Source of the DNA: a virus
DNA: 64,000 nucleotides
IMG/VR virus record: IMGVR_UViG_3300050343_000089
Location: 1 to 64,000 of that record
Reading direction: 5' to 3' (one strand)
Shown here: positions 22,050-63,885 of the stretch, piece after piece
Numbering within the stretch: position 1 is the stretch's first letter
How the letters are laid out: every line of letters starts with the position of its first letter
Made by a program: the position numbers and the translations under genes
The notes under the pieces: model-generated
What the model was told of the DNA's origin: nothing
What the model saw: only the letters and a program-made list of their open reading frames with translations
Databases searched by the model: none

Positions 22050-22228
22050 TGGATATACATTTACACGAAGTTGGCAAGGTCAGACCATTGATCTTAACTA
22101 AAAGGCAAATAAGGGGTTACTACAAAGACTACCTTACTGGCGAGAACAAAGTGCAAACAGCAAATGAAGAATATGTTGTTAGAGACTCTTTGACAGAAAT
22201 TGCATATTTAATGGGTGAGCAAAGATGA
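22049..22228 (+). CDS. Small 59-residue early protein
   Basis: MDIHLHEVGKVRPLILTKRQ, then a basic/aromatic RGYYKDYLTG and VRDSLTEIAYLMGEQR. Start at 22049 is chosen because it overlaps the previous stop (ATGTAATGG). Identical in genome B. Its ATGA overlap couples it to the exonuclease gene. Not recognised. Confidence 0.55.
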   Translation: MDIHLHEVGKVRPLILTKRQIRGYYKDYLTGENKVQTANEEYVVRDSLTEIAYLMGEQR

Positions 22229-23058
22229 AGATAGAATCACTAAAGAACTTTACAGCAGAAAGGAAGGGACAAGCACTTATCTATAAAGACATACCTAATG
22301 AGGATTATCATGCAGGTGTAGGTATAAGCAGTAGTTATATTAGAAGATTTGGTCAGTCACAATTACATGCTGTAGAGCATAAACAAGAAAGCACACCAGC
22401 ACTAAAGTTTGGGACAGCAGCACATTCTTTGATTGTAGAAGGCAGAGAGGCTTTTGATAAAGAAGTAAAGGTTGTTAGTGGCTCTCCATATACAAAAGCC
22501 TACAAAGAAGAGAAGGCTGATTATGAAGATCAAGGCTATATAGTATTAAAAGAAGCAGAATTAGAACTGCTAGAAAGCATGAAGGCAAATATGATTTACG
22601 AAGGTAATGCCTACTTAAATGCTAAAGGCAAAGTTGCAGAAGCAAGTATCTACTGGTATGAAGATGACATTCTTTGTAAGTGTAGACCTGATTTATTGTG
22701 CCCACCTTTAAGTGAACCTAATTCAGACAGCAAGATAATTATAGTAGATTACAAGACCACTATATCTTGCGAACCTTATGCCTTTAATAAATCAGTTAGA
22801 AAGTATGGATATGATATGCAGGCGGCATGGTATAGAAGAGGTTTAGAGTCAGCAGGATATAGCGTAGATGGTTTTGTATTTATAGCTCAGGAGAAAGTTC
22901 ATCCTTATGCTTCTAAGGTATTTAGAATAACTAAAGAGCAAATTGATTATGGGTGGACAATAATGGAGAGATATTTAGAAGAGTACAAGGAGTATCAACA
23001 AGGTAAGCCTCTAAGTATCTATAACAGTCCTAATATTGTTGATTTGGTTTTTGAGTAA
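22225..23058 (+). CDS. RecE-like PD-(D/E)XK exonuclease (exodeoxyribonuclease VIII family)
   Basis: A 277-residue protein with the YqaJ/RecE-like layout: DYHAGVGISSSYIRRF at the start, H67 (GTAAHSLIVEG), E139 (KVAEASIYWY), D156 (CRPDLL) and D175-Y-K177 (IVDYKT), then a helix with YDMQAAWYRRGL. Such enzymes degrade one strand from DNA ends for recombination, often with an annealing protein, but no annealase is recognised here. It lies in the early operon upstream of SSB and primase genes. Genome B differs at a few residues at both ends only. Confidence 0.8.
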   Translation: MKIESLKNFTAERKGQALIYKDIPNEDYHAGVGISSSYIRRFGQSQLHAVEHKQESTPALKFGTAAHSLIVEGREAFDKEVKVVSGSPYTKAYKEEKADYEDQGYIVLKEAELELLESMKANMIYEGNAYLNAKGKVAEASIYWYEDDILCKCRPDLLCPPLSEPNSDSKIIIVDYKTTISCEPYAFNKSVRKYGYDMQAAWYRRGLESAGYSVDGFVFIAQEKVHPYASKVFRITKEQIDYGWTIMERYLEEYKEYQQGKPLSIYNSPNIVDLVFE

Positions 23059-23512: not shown

Positions 23513-23612
23513 CTGGATTCTATATATAGTTGGTGGTTTTGTTGGCTTGTTAGCAATAGCTACAATAATAAGCGTAGTAGCTGCAATTTACATACTTAAT
23601 AAGCTAGATTAA
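23505..23612 (+). CDS. 35-residue single-pass membrane protein
   Basis: MLDWILYIVGGFVGLLAIAT followed by IISVVAAIYILNKLD: nearly all hydrophobic. It overlaps the previous gene by eight bases and the next by one (TAATG). Present in genome B with silent changes only, which suggests it is translated. Function unknown. Confidence 0.55.
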   Translation: MLDWILYIVGGFVGLLAIATIISVVAAIYILNKLD

Positions 23613-24034
23613 TGGTAAACAGTAGAAACAAAGGAGCAGCATTTGAGAGAGTTATATGTAACAAACTTAATACTGTCCTTGAATCTAAAGGTATTGATAC
23701 TAGGGTTAAAAGAAACCTTGACCAGTATCAAACAAAAGGCATGGCTGATATATATTTTGATAAGTTCGCTATCGAATGTAAAAGATATAAAGCTAGTGCT
23801 AAGAAATCAATGTATAAGAATGAATGGTGGAAACAAGCAGTTGAGAGTGCTGGTGATAACCTAATTCCTATACTAATTTATAAATATGACAGGAAGCAAA
23901 TAATGTGTGTGATTCCTTTGTTTTTGGTTACGTCAGTTGATACGCCAAACTGGGAATGTACTTACCTCTGCCCACTGTCAGAAATATGTGAAAATTTAGA
24001 TGAAATCTTACAAAAAGCAAATGGACTTAAATAG
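23612..24034 (+). CDS. Resolvase-like PD-(D/E)XK nuclease
   Basis: A 140-residue protein opening RNKGAAFERVICNKLN, with E12, D46 (KGMADIYFD) and E55-C-K57 (FAIECKRYK). That is the Holliday-junction-resolvase-type arrangement of the PD-(D/E)XK fold. It would resolve branched DNA before packaging or trim recombination intermediates. The protein is identical in genome B despite silent base changes, a sign of purifying selection. Confidence 0.7.
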   Translation: MVNSRNKGAAFERVICNKLNTVLESKGIDTRVKRNLDQYQTKGMADIYFDKFAIECKRYKASAKKSMYKNEWWKQAVESAGDNLIPILIYKYDRKQIMCVIPLFLVTSVDTPNWECTYLCPLSEICENLDEILQKANGLK

Positions 24035-29103: not shown

Positions 29104-29331
29104 TTAATTACTATACAACAAACAAGATTGTATAAATAATGAATCCGCCTCATCATAGTTTTTAAAATATGCAATATCAGAATAAATACCGCTTTTTCTT
29201 TTCGGCTCATATTTATCACCTTCATATTTAAGGATATCAACATAATATTTTTTGCCTTTTTGTTTTAAAAGAACATAAGGTTTTTTAGTTTTAAAATGTG
29301 TTACCCTGCTTTGCAATAATACTTTTTTCAT
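29104..29331 (-). CDS. Small basic 75-residue protein, last gene of leftward operon
   Basis: MKKVLLQSRVTHFKTKKPYV then KQKGKKYYVDILKYEGDKY. Start at 29331 is set by AAGGAGCAAGACTAATG, which ends the upstream gene. In genome B only the first five codons survive (62745..62762). No family is recognised. Confidence 0.6.
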   Translation of the reverse strand: MKKVLLQSRVTHFKTKKPYVLLKQKGKKYYVDILKYEGDKYEPKRKSGIYSDIAYFKNYDEADSLFIQSCLLYSN

Positions 29332-29549
29332 TAGTCTTGCTCCTTGCAATCAATACAAATAAATTCTTCACAATCTGAATTCCAAACATACTGTAAACAA
29401 CTATCACAACAAGTATGCTCAGGTTGACTTGCATTAAATTCTTGTTCAAATTCTTCATCATTCAAAGAATTATCTATATTTATAAATGGGTGATTATTAT
29501 TAGAATGTAATGTTCTTATTTGTTTAAATGTAAATTTTTCTATATTCAT
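29331..29549 (-). CDS. Small Cys-rich (Zn-finger-like) protein
   Basis: 72 residues, ending HTCCDSCLQYVWNSDCEEFI then CIDCKEQD: Cys pairs C-x2-C and C-x2-C around a short linker, a likely zinc ribbon. The first half is polar (TLHSNNNHPFINI). Starts by TAATG overlap in the AAGGAGCAAGACTAATG junction and itself ends in KEQD. Genome B has three different genes in this slot. Confidence 0.6.
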   Translation of the reverse strand: MNIEKFTFKQIRTLHSNNNHPFINIDNSLNDEEFEQEFNASQPEHTCCDSCLQYVWNSDCEEFICIDCKEQD

Positions 29550-29737
29550 TAGTCTTGCTCCTTCTTATATGCACACACAACAAAGTTATAACCCTCTGCC
29601 TCTGTATCTAAATCTAACAAATCAGTAAGCGTATCCAATACATTTACTTTATGTGATTCAGCATAATCAACACCAAACCACACACCGTCAGGAACTATAG
29701 TCCACCCATTCTTTTTAAGTTCTTGTTTAGTTATCAT
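29549..29737 (-). CDS. Small 62-residue protein, first gene of leftward operon
   Basis: MITKQELKKNGWTIVPDGVW then DYAESHKVNVLDTLTDLLDL. Start at 29737 is supported by AAGGAGTTAAATAAC and a promoter about 40 bases upstream. Ends in KKEQD within the shared junction. Identical in genome B (63234..63422). Unknown function. Confidence 0.65.
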   Translation of the reverse strand: MITKQELKKNGWTIVPDGVWFGVDYAESHKVNVLDTLTDLLDLDTEAEGYNFVVCAYKKEQD

Positions 29738-29810: not shown

Positions 29811-30010
29811 TGCAAATTTATATTTAAGGCAAATTTAAGATCAAGGCAAATACTGTTTTGATGCAAATTTAGTATCAAGGCAAATACTGTTTTGATGCAA
29901 ATTTAGTATCAAGGCAAATTTAGTATCAAGGCAAATTTAGTATCAAGGCAAATTTATTTTTCATAAAAGGCAAATTTATTTTTCATAAAAAAAGGCAAAT
30001 TTATTTTTGA
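29811..30010 (+). repeat. AAGGCAAATTT tandem array (two unit types), no gene
   Basis: Eight AAGGCAAAT copies start at 29826, 29843, 29877, 29911, 29928, 29945, 29967 and 29992, with three shorter TGCAAATTT copies at 29811, 29862 and 29896. The first type is AAGGCAAATTTAGTATC (17-base period). The second continues ATTTTTCAT plus an A-run (22-26 bases). All copies point the same way. Genome B's array is about twice as long. It lies upstream of PL2. Unit lengths, lack of unique spacers and gradual drift exclude CRISPR. Confidence 0.9.
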
Positions 30011-55930: not shown

Positions 55931-56109
55931 TGGATATACATTTACACGAAGTTGGCAAGGTCAGACCATTGATCTTAACTAAAAGGCAAATAAGGGGTTA
56001 CTACAAAGACTACCTTACTGGCGAGAACAAAGTGCAAACAGCAAATGAAGAATATGTTGTTAGAGACTCTTTGACAGAAATTGCATATTTAATGGGTGAG
56101 CAAAGATGA
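55930..56109 (+). CDS. Small 59-residue early protein (genome B)
   Basis: Identical protein to 22049..22228; start chosen by TAATG overlap. Confidence 0.55.
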   Translation: MDIHLHEVGKVRPLILTKRQIRGYYKDYLTGENKVQTANEEYVVRDSLTEIAYLMGEQR

Positions 56110-56939
56110 AAATAGAATCACTAAAGAACTTTGTATCAGAGCAAAAAGGTCAAGCACTTATCTATAAAGACATACCTAATGAGGATTATCATGCAGGTGT
56201 AGGTATAAGCAGTAGTTATATTAGAAGATTTGGTCAGTCACAATTACATGCTGTAGAGCATAAACAAGAAAGCACACCAGCACTAAAGTTTGGAACAGCA
56301 GCACACTCTTTGATTGTAGAAGGCAGAGAGGCTTTTGATAAAGAAGTAAAGGTTGTTAGTGGCTCTCCATATACAAAAGCCTACAAAGAAGAGAAGGCTG
56401 ATTATGAAGATCAAGGCTATATAGTATTAAAAGAAGCAGAATTAGAACTACTAGAAAGCATGAAGGCAAATATGATTTACGAAGGTAATGCCTACTTAAA
56501 TGCTAAAGGCAAAGTTGCAGAAGCAAGTATCTACTGGTATGAAGATGACATTCTTTGTAAGTGTAGACCTGATTTATTGTGCCCACCTTTAAGTGAACCT
56601 AATTCAGACAGCAAGATAATTATAGTAGATTACAAGACTACTATATCTTGCGAACCTTATGCCTTTAATAAATCAGTCAGCAAGTATGGGTATGACATGC
56701 AGGCCGCATGGTATAGAAGAGGTTTAGAGTCAGCAGGATATAGCGTAGATGGTTTTGTATTTATAGCTCAGGAGAAAGTTCATCCTTATGCTTCTAAGGT
56801 GTTTAGAATAACTAAAGAGCAAATGGATTATGCCTGGAAAATAATGGATAGATATTTAGAAGAGTACAAAGAGTATCAACAAGGTAAGCCTCTAAGTATC
56901 TATAACAGTCCTAATATTGTTGATTTGGTTTTTGAGTAA
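56106..56939 (+). CDS. RecE-like PD-(D/E)XK exonuclease (genome B)
   Basis: 277 residues with all catalytic positions as in A (E139, D156, D175, K177). Differences are NFVSEQKGQ near the start, one Arg to Ser (SVSKYGYD) and EQMDYAWKIMDRY near the end. Confidence 0.8.
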   Translation: MKIESLKNFVSEQKGQALIYKDIPNEDYHAGVGISSSYIRRFGQSQLHAVEHKQESTPALKFGTAAHSLIVEGREAFDKEVKVVSGSPYTKAYKEEKADYEDQGYIVLKEAELELLESMKANMIYEGNAYLNAKGKVAEASIYWYEDDILCKCRPDLLCPPLSEPNSDSKIIIVDYKTTISCEPYAFNKSVSKYGYDMQAAWYRRGLESAGYSVDGFVFIAQEKVHPYASKVFRITKEQMDYAWKIMDRYLEEYKEYQQGKPLSIYNSPNIVDLVFE

Positions 56940-57393: not shown

Positions 57394-57493
57394 CTGGATA
57401 ATATATATAGTTGGTGGCTTTGTTGGGTTATTAGCAATAGCAACAATAATAAGCGTAGTAGCTGCAATTTATATACTTAACAAGCTAGATTAA
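57386..57493 (+). CDS. 35-residue membrane protein (genome B)
   Basis: Same as 23505..23612 at protein level although several bases differ (GATAATATATATAG, GGGTTATTAGC). The silent pattern supports that it is translated. Confidence 0.58.
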   Translation: MLDWIIYIVGGFVGLLAIATIISVVAAIYILNKLD

Positions 57494-57915
57494 TGGTAAA
57501 CAGTAGAAACAAAGGAGCAGCATTTGAGAGAGTTATATGTAACAAACTTAACACTGTCCTTGAATCTAAAGGTATTGATACTAGGGTCAAAAGAAACCTT
57601 GACCAGTATCAAACAAAAGGCATGGCTGATATATATTTTGATAAGTTCGCAATCGAATGTAAAAGATATAAAGCTAGTGCTAAGAAATCAATGTATAAGA
57701 ATGAATGGTGGAAACAAGCAGTTGAGAGTGCTGGTGATAACCTAATTCCTATACTAATTTATAAATATGATAGGAAGCAGATAATGTGCGTGATTCCCCT
57801 GTTCTTGGTTACATCAGTTGATACGCCAAACTGGGAATGTACTTACCTCTGCCCACTGTCAGAAATATGTGAAAATTTAGATGAAATCTTACAAAAAGCA
57901 AATGGACTTAAATAG
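57493..57915 (+). CDS. Resolvase-like PD-(D/E)XK nuclease (genome B)
   Basis: Protein identical to 23612..24034, with at least six silent base changes. Confidence 0.7.
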   Translation: MVNSRNKGAAFERVICNKLNTVLESKGIDTRVKRNLDQYQTKGMADIYFDKFAIECKRYKASAKKSMYKNEWWKQAVESAGDNLIPILIYKYDRKQIMCVIPLFLVTSVDTPNWECTYLCPLSEICENLDEILQKANGLK

Positions 57916-62744: not shown

Positions 62745-62762
62745 TTATAATACTTTTTCCAT
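62745..62762 (-). pseudogene. Five-codon remnant of the leftward operon's last gene
   Basis: ATG GAA AAA GTA TTA TAA: matches the start of genome A's 75-residue gene (MKKVLL) and then stops at the TGCAAATTTA repeat. The start still sits in AAGGAGCAAGACTAATG. Roughly 210 bases present in A are gone. Confidence 0.65.
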
Positions 62763-62935
62763 TAGTCTTGCTCCTTATAGTTTTTATAATAAATTTTAAT
62801 TTCGTTAGGTCTTGAATCAGAACATTCATCCTCTTCTGAATTACAAACCTCACATTTTAGGGTTATAGATTTTTTATGAATGTAATTATTATCACAATCA
62901 CAATCCCAATATCTAGGGTCGGTTTTAACTATCAT
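62762..62935 (-). CDS. Small Cys-rich 57-residue protein, B-specific
   Basis: MIVKTDPRYWDCDCDNNYIH then ITLKCEVCNSEEDE, ending NYKEQD. C-x-C and C-x2-C pairs suggest zinc binding. Start at AAGGAGCAAGACAATG, a variant of the shared junction; ends in the standard one. Confidence 0.6.
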   Translation of the reverse strand: MIVKTDPRYWDCDCDNNYIHKKSITLKCEVCNSEEDECSDSRPNEIKIYYKNYKEQD

Positions 62936-63080
62936 TGTCTTGCTCCTTGTTAGTCCACCACAAGGAAACAGTATAGTTTTCTTGTTTACAGTTGTTGCAA
63001 TAGCAGTCCATTTCATTACTCTTGTCCTTGATAATCTCTATATCATCAGACGTACATTCATCACATACATAATTATCCAT
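62925..63080 (-). CDS. Small Zn-ribbon-like 51-residue protein, B-specific
   Basis: MDNYVCDECTSDDIEIIKDK then NEMDCYCNNCKQENYT, ending TNKEQDNDS: C-x2-C and C-x-C-x2-C. Strong ribosome site GAGGAGGTATCTA. It overlaps the next gene by 11 bases, with the KEQD codons again forming its ribosome site. Confidence 0.6.
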   Translation of the reverse strand: MDNYVCDECTSDDIEIIKDKSNEMDCYCNNCKQENYTVSLWWTNKEQDNDS

Positions 63081-63234
63081 TAGATACCTCCTCAGTTTCT
63101 TCTAAATGATGTATTAAGGCATATAGTCCTGCCTTGATACCTGTATGTTCTGATTGAGTATGACTATCGTTTACCCATTCATCATCTGCAATAATATCTT
63201 CTGCAATATTTTTAATTCGATCTATTGTTATCAT
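63073..63234 (-). CDS. Small acidic 53-residue protein, B-specific
   Basis: MITIDRIKNIAEDIIADDEW then HTGIKAGLYALIHHLEETEE. Start at the AAGGAGCAAGACTAATG junction. Ends without KEQD. No family recognised. Confidence 0.58.
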   Translation of the reverse strand: MITIDRIKNIAEDIIADDEWVNDSHTQSEHTGIKAGLYALIHHLEETEEVSNG

Positions 63235-63422
63235 TAGTCTTGCTCCTTCTTGTATGCACACACAACAAAGTTATAACCCTCTGCCTCTGTATCTAAATCT
63301 AACAAATCAGTAAGCGTATCCAATACATTTACTTTATGTGATTCAGCATAATCAACACCAAACCACACACCGTCAGGAACTATAGTCCACCCATTCTTTT
63401 TAAGTTCTTGTTTAGTTATCAT
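63234..63422 (-). CDS. Small 62-residue protein, first gene of leftward operon (genome B)
   Basis: Identical to the protein at 29549..29737; the base identity stops abruptly after the junction, where different genes follow. Confidence 0.65.
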   Translation of the reverse strand: MITKQELKKNGWTIVPDGVWFGVDYAESHKVNVLDTLTDLLDLDTEAEGYNFVVCAYKKEQD

Positions 63423-63494: not shown

Positions 63495-63885
63495 ATGCAA
63501 AATATTTAAGGCAAATAGTATTAAGGCAAATTTCAAGTATCAAGGCAAATTTAGTATCAAGGCAAATTTAAGATCAAGGCAAATTTAGTATCAAGGCAAA
63601 TTTAGTATCAAGGCAAATTTAGTATCAAGGCAAATTTAGTATCAAGGCAAATTTATTTTTTATAAAAAAAGGCAAATTTATTTTTCATAAAAAAAGGCAA
63701 ATTTATTTTTTATTTAGGCAAATTTATTTTTCATAAAAAAAGGCAAATTTCATTTTTTATAAAAAAAGGCAAATTTATTTTTCATAAAAAAAGGCAAATT
63801 TATTTTTCATAAAAAAAGGCAAATTTATTTTTTATAAAAAAAGGCAAATTTATTTTTCATAAAAAAAGGCAAATTTATTTTTGAC
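63495..63885 (+). repeat. AAGGCAAATTT tandem array, long version (genome B)
   Basis: About 18 copies of (A/T)(A/)GGCAAAT in one orientation: roughly nine of the 17-base type (AAGGCAAATTTAGTATC) up to 63,655, then about nine of the 22-26-base type with ATTTTT(C/T)AT plus A-run. One unit is TAGGCAAATTT. Units are near perfect, so recent expansion is likely. No gene. Confidence 0.92.

Follow-up and report, generated by a model that had tools for sequence, protein, structure and literature searches.

The DNA analysed here (the window) is a 64,000-nucleotide (nt) stretch of the virus record IMGVR_UViG_3300050343_000089, itself 65.7 kb long, and consists of two divergent copies, A and B (~79–98% identical), of one ~33.5 kb phage genome arranged head to tail. 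Because exact A/B matches reach 447 nt, the contig may be an assembler's join of two strains or a genuine dimer. In both copies, an operon of small genes carries a 17-nt sequence, AAGGAGCAAGACTAATG (junction J1), at gene boundaries. A sequence-only reading of the window had reported this string at four places, each numbered by the A of the junction ATG, and had interpreted it as a possible connector at which small genes could be exchanged as cassettes. All four copies proved to be exact and to lie on the minus strand, and the reported variant AAGGAGCAAGACAATG (J1b) was likewise found with its ATG at 62935. Allowing up to three mismatches to AAGGAGCAAGACTAATG still yielded only four sites, compared with 0.36 in shuffled windows. 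As proposed, each exact copy encodes K-E-Q-D-stop of the upstream gene and holds the start of the next one within TAATG; at J1b the upstream gene continues past the junction and ends in KEQDNDS.

Gene 1, the first gene considered in both copies (Table 1), encodes an identical protein in A and B, with a difference at 1 of 189 nt. All content then differs between its junction and the last junction, where A has one gene and B has three unrelated ones, as the earlier reading had stated, and homology returns thereafter. Two features of copy B had been overlooked, namely a junction of another dialect (J2, GGAGGTATCTAATG) at the middle boundary and a short remnant, MEKVL followed by a stop, after the last junction. 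Since this remnant derives from the last operon gene of A, the swapped segment has homologous flanks on both sides. The deletion that produced the remnant ends in AAATTTGCAG, the sequence 3' of the intact gene in A. The genes of this region also occur in other contigs in different company: the 53-amino-acid (aa) cassette gene of B has relatives in L019, L032, L053, L089 and L117 with differing neighbours, the 51-aa gene has relatives in L046, L078, L097 and L136, the L153 relative of the 57-aa gene ends in KENEDE and is flanked by dialect J4, and the relative of A's last operon gene in L086 follows a different predecessor across the same junction.

Table 1. Features of the cassette operon and putative recombination genes in copies A and B of the window.
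Feature	Position	Strand	Description
Gene 1, copy A	29549..29737	-	62 aa, ends KEQD-stop; family in ~46 loci, C-terminal tails interchangeable
Junction J1, copy A	29547..29563	-	exact copy of AAGGAGCAAGACTAATG
Cassette gene, copy A	29331..29549	-	72 aa, MNIEKFTFKQ...KEQD-stop
Second junction J1, copy A	29329..29345	-	exact copy of AAGGAGCAAGACTAATG
Last operon gene, copy A	29104..29331	-	75 aa, MKKVLLQSRVTHFKTK...
Gene 1, copy B	63234..63422	-	protein same as in A
Junction J1, copy B	63232..63248	-	exact copy of AAGGAGCAAGACTAATG
First cassette gene, copy B	63073..63234	-	53 aa, MITIDRIKNIAEDII...EEVSNG-stop
Junction J2, copy B, middle boundary	63078..63091	-	GGAGGTATCTAATG; other dialect, recurs in other phages
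Second cassette gene, copy B	62925..63080	-	51 aa, MDNYVCDECTSDDIEI...KEQDNDS-stop
Junction variant J1b, copy B	62933..62948	-	AAGGAGCAAGACAATG; upstream gene reads through ATG
Third cassette gene, copy B	62762..62935	-	57 aa, MIVKTDPRYWDCDC...YKNYKEQD-stop
Second exact J1, copy B	62760..62776	-	exact copy of AAGGAGCAAGACTAATG
MEKVL-stop remnant, copy B	62745..62762	-	last operon gene of A, cut down by deletion
Exonuclease VIII/RecE-like gene, copy A	22225..23058	+	phrog_412, E=6e-62; PF12684; second copy 56106-56939
RusA-like Holliday junction resolvase gene, copy A	23612..24034	+	phrog_244; second copy 57493-57915

Beyond the window, exact AAGGAGCAAGACTAATG was present in at least 119 IMG/VR stretches, with two or three copies in several of them. 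A control in which the spacer was permuted while ribosome site, stop-start overlap and base composition were left unchanged matched 31 stretches, and a synonymous control that retains KEQD but replaces GAC with GAT matched 15; neither occurred twice in any contig. GAT is the codon expected to be preferred in AT-rich genomes. Since the controls never repeat within a contig, the recurring entity is DNA, not peptide. The J1 core in array contigs joins 45 families of upstream genes to 54 families of downstream genes, in 66 different pairings. Some single-copy matches in GC-richer phages (for example L009–L011, L048 and L063) represent a fixed gene pair and are probably due to chance. The cassette interpretation, which was to be abandoned if the string were absent elsewhere or tied to fixed genes, is thus supported by its recurrence with varied neighbours. 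One correction concerns the string itself: the 17-mer is one of many dialects arranged in blocks.

Each dialect consists of GGAG, a fixed 6–8-nt spacer and ATG (14–17 bases, exact in DNA), and at least ten dialects, from a list that is partly ad hoc, link small genes in 144 viral contigs, which come from several unrelated, uncultured, mostly low-GC and apparently marine phages. Relatives of gene 1 fetched by protein similarity (46 loci) share a body of ~58 residues up to ...CAYKK, followed by tails that differ in almost every phage (KEQD, EEVSDV, EESDNG, QENEDE, EGGNDE etc.). Because the tail is often encoded by the same sequence that precedes the start of gene 1 itself or of other genes in that contig, each phage has junctions of its own. 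Counting of start contexts without a preset motif returned J3 GGAGTCCGACAATG, J4 GGAGAACGAAGATG, J2, J6 GGAGCAAAACTAATG and J5 GGAGAAAAGCTAATG, the last of which surfaced before any search for it. A repeated 15-nt start context was detected in 21 of 43 loci fetched by the gene-1 protein alone, compared with 2 of 46 control-scan loci; two Roseobacter phages had none. One strand of a single contig holds up to 13 junctions, as exemplified by L375, where J4, J3 and J5 runs follow one another. The six main dialects are each found 23–139 times in the array contigs, compared with a mean of 0–0.07 for permuted spacers. Two simpler explanations were rejected: protein-level selection for KEQD, given that the GAT spelling of this peptide is rare and in no contig occurs twice, and chance ribosome-site similarity, given that the permuted-spacer control never repeats within a contig and permuted spacers are nearly absent from array contigs.

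Genes were called on 144 array strands (1889 genes, 500 of them starting at a junction) and grouped into families; gene calling was simple, families were built by single linkage, redundancy was partly removed and all contigs are metagenomic. Across same-dialect junctions, the next gene was the same in 11% of pairs at 85–95% aa identity and in 17% at 95–99%, compared with 24% and 52%, respectively, at boundaries without a listed junction. This contrast is conservative, because the latter boundaries include accessory genes with unlisted dialects. The 460 junction links comprise 352 distinct family pairs, and 18 presence/absence events involving one or more whole cassettes were found between the same flanking genes. 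The breakpoints fall at the junction itself. In pairs with a common upstream gene but different genes after the junction (131 pairs, 46 families), nucleotide identity of ~0.9 extends to the junction and drops to ~0.35 immediately past the ATG; in pairs with a common downstream gene but different predecessors (138 pairs, 38 families), it is ~0.29 until GGAG and ~0.93 after the ATG, identity inside the junction being 1.0 by construction in both comparisons.

Cassettes are organised in blocks of one dialect. The same dialect was found at both ends of 127 of 176 non-redundant cassettes, compared with 29 expected and 47 in the highest shuffle. Blocks follow a consistent order (J6 before J3, 110:0; J3 before J5, 222:4; J1 before J2, 28:3) and may be bordered by particular genes: an anchor gene, MNLKDLDKVW..., precedes the J5 block in 17 of 24 cases, and a gene encoding MSDxINPxYYRK... 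closes the J3 block in 18 of 36. Thirteen gene families occur with matched flanks in at least two dialects. A later J5 scan added 11 array strands, on which 27 of 34 junction-started proteins were related to earlier ones. Within a dialect block, gene content has been rearranged extensively, and the breakpoints fall precisely at the junction.

The junction also fixes the reading frame of the gene that ends in it (J5, 66 of 67; J1, 59 of 66; J3, 83 of 89; J4, 30 of 32; J6, 25 of 29). J1, J5 and J6 carry a stop (TAATG); J2, J3 and J4 do not, and the upstream gene there crosses the ATG and terminates at a stop supplied by the opening codons of the next gene. A suitable out-of-frame stop in the first codons was present in 80% of families after stop-less junctions, compared with 48% after stop-containing junctions (p=2e-6) and 40% elsewhere (p=6e-13). 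Cassettes behind stop-less junctions therefore bring a terminator for any predecessor. Taken as a whole, the junction is a dual-coding connector, which combines the ribosome site, spacer and ATG of the next gene with the in-frame tail of the previous one.

Arrays were found in at least three backbone groups (the window with G005; G001 with G022/G023; G003, G004, G028 and partly G013). Across these groups, 0–2 large genes are held in common, yet junctions and cassettes are shared, which suggests a common host group and co-infection. The carriers L507 and L509–L514 (G028, G023 and G022), for instance, have backbones unrelated to that of the window and the same tiny early genes and junctions. The window terminase is present in 1 of 28 carriers tested, and its closest cultured counterpart belongs to Roseobacter phages CRP-8xx (49%), in which no start context repeats. 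The 238 cassette families have a median length of 67 aa and are unusually acidic (70% have an isoelectric point below 5, compared with 38%), a bias that persists without the last eight residues. Pfam and PHROGs searches with 56 cassette families returned almost nothing (best Pfam E=8e-4; 2 of 56 in PHROGs), including one weak Lar-like zinc-ribbon match (0.0097). Among the cultured phages of INPHARED, no relatives of gene 1 or of 21 concatenated cassette families were found. In genome contigs, gene 1 had a single match (L516, 10001-10204), in a phage contig binned in a metagenome-assembled genome of Candidatus Pelagibacter, a hint of the host that is too weak to name one. AlphaFold modelled gene 1 with low confidence (pLDDT 73, pTM 0.45), and the model was left aside.

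The window also contains a strongly polar motif, GGCAAAT, present 78 times on the plus strand and 0 times on the minus strand, in every 8-kb bin. Related strings behave similarly (GGCAAA, 108:2; AGGCAAAT, 60:0), and the bias is ~10–27 to 1 in other window-type contigs (for example L003, L006, L013, L036, L068, L086 and L091). The motif is densest just upstream of the cassette operon, at 29828-29994 and 63525-63868, where AAATTTGCC(TT) forms tandem blocks together with AT-rich spacers. It is possibly a Chi-like, primase or packaging signal.

We consider it likely that the junction acts both as a translational coupler and as an exchange place for interchangeable small early genes, with the dialect as the address of a block. 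Because all boundaries of a block share in-frame sequence, any two junction copies could recombine into intact genes, within one genome or between co-infecting phages, and each exchange would leave the genes translationally coupled. The likely route would be single-strand annealing, in which a phage recombinase such as Sak4 would work with a RecE-like exonuclease. Phage Rad52-like recombinases are known for relaxed fidelity on diverged sequences (PMC3945230). Among 23 carrier records, strong E-values identified a RecE/ExoVIII-like exonuclease in 11 and a Sak4-like annealing protein in 9, and the exonuclease VIII/RecE-like gene of the window is, judging by its sequence match, a candidate recombination partner. 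Recombination at junctions within a dialect would result in dialect-specific cassette pools, the address limiting exchange mostly to matching blocks. Microhomology exchange between dialects is also possible, because they have GGAG and (A)ATG in common. The cassettes themselves may be host-takeover or counter-defence genes under diversifying turnover. A more far-reaching version, which we put forward tentatively and with some doubt, is that unrelated phage lineages share junction codes as addresses and that blocks accept cassettes of their own code only, so that anti-host genes are assembled from standard parts.

Several observations weigh against exchange at the junctions. Shared sequence of 14–17 nt is short for RecA-type recombination, and exchange as such is deduced from sequence comparison. 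No annealing protein was recognised in the window phage, though an exonuclease and a resolvase are present, and several of the 23 carriers have neither phrog_412/434 nor Sak4. A change of dialect at both cassette ends would need exchange at no more than 4–6 shared bases, or later homogenisation. In the J5 scan, flanks matched in 13 of 16, compared with a shuffled mean of 11.6, a difference that is uninformative with so few blocks. Finally, the conserved block is also the ribosome-binding site, and its conservation may therefore have a translational reason. In a rival account that we regard as unlikely, a phage or host regulator, or coupled re-initiation, needs an exact start context in each operon block, and illegitimate shuffling is followed by selection for products with that context. 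The conserved core does span precisely the Shine-Dalgarno sequence to the ATG, start-associated sequences of other phages are read as translational (PMC3203893, PMC7302621), and J5 contexts are kept beyond the drift of gene bodies, being exact in 62% of homologous pairs compared with 28% expected. However, a start-site regulator does not require the upstream frame and peptide tail, which are also fixed; a single phage carries many different dialects, set out in ordered blocks; and random illegitimate joints would seldom recreate an exact in-frame junction of 14–17 nt. A search for the translational regulator RegA (PF01818) gave no match in 24 records, a weak negative since a control search likewise matched nowhere. 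Recombination and translational constraint may also act together.

Precise breakpoints at a short sequence could also suggest that junctions are cut by an enzyme dedicated to them, be it a site-specific recombinase, a homing nuclease or an integron-like enzyme, but the many unrelated dialects would need one enzyme each, and the motif is asymmetric and without inverted repeats, which makes such an enzyme very improbable. Misjoining of contigs at shared sequence is hardly credible as the source of the pattern: the data are wholly metagenomic and the window itself is perhaps a join of two strains, but assembler k-mers are longer than 14–17 nt, arrangements recur across datasets (L316/L373, L276/L336, L320/L330 and L032/L056, some of which are perhaps reassemblies), and conserved frame, stop supply and block order are not expected from misassembly. 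Of the cassette swap at an in-register junction first proposed for the window, the shuffled order, the breakpoints and the preserved frame are thus borne out, and homologous recombination is its presumed route.

Among known systems, the closest parallels are the start-associated sequences (SAS) and extended SAS (ESAS) of cluster K mycobacteriophages and cluster EF Microbacterium phages, in which a conserved ribosome-site sequence precedes genes of many families, ~10–19 times per genome, and could, according to the authors, be a recombination target (PMC3203893, PMC7302621). Like SAS, junctions are short conserved sequences at the Shine-Dalgarno position of many unrelated genes. They do not, however, match the cluster K consensus GGGATAGGAGCCC. 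Roughly half of the cluster K sites are preceded by 17-bp imperfect inverted repeats (ESAS), whereas junctions have no extended inverted repeats, and upstream of GGAG lies unrelated gene body (identity ~0.3 between contigs). Unlike SAS, junctions encode the in-frame tail of the previous gene, form several dialects in ordered blocks per phage with some cassettes found in several dialects, and show measured shuffling with breakpoints at the sequence.

In the lambdoid model (Susskind and Botstein 1978; Clark et al. 2001), as summarised in PMC3233612, homologous recombination is aimed at short shared sequences at module boundaries. Junctions likewise are short identical sequences between otherwise unrelated modules; unlike the boundary sequences as outlined in that summary, one identical junction can occur at several boundaries in a row and connects tens of unrelated families in phages with unrelated backbones. 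The PeSL elements of T4-like phages (Arbiol 2010; Comeau 2014), described in PMC4503421 as an intergenic early promoter with a terminator stem-loop, are also repeated between small early genes and mediate modular shuffling. Compared with PeSL as portrayed there, the upstream stop mostly lies at +1 to +14 of the next ATG, and the junction genes overlap or abut, leaving no room for a promoter or stem-loop. Integron cassettes resemble the arrays in being promoterless genes gained and lost as units; unlike them, junctions have no apparent attC-like hairpin, and the connector lies inside coding sequence. We found no account of in-frame, block-coded phage junction arrays in the literature searched, most subscription journals and preprints being outside its scope; relative to the known kinds, what looks new is the segmental coding, the in-frame tails and the scale.

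Whether mosaic joints arise by targeted recombination at shared boundary sequences or by random joints followed by selection is a stated open question (PMC3233612). Junction arrays are a natural case of unusual clarity: identical joints repeat, their breakpoints have been measured, the frame is conserved and codes are specific to blocks, and this makes the question directly testable. The junctions also provide a simple DNA handle for finding hundreds of uncharacterised, mostly acidic phage proteins, and the 238 cassette families are likely a reservoir of host-takeover or counter-defence genes. If the dialects do serve as an address code, hundreds of tiny genes would be exchanged across phage lineages, in frame, into a defined block.
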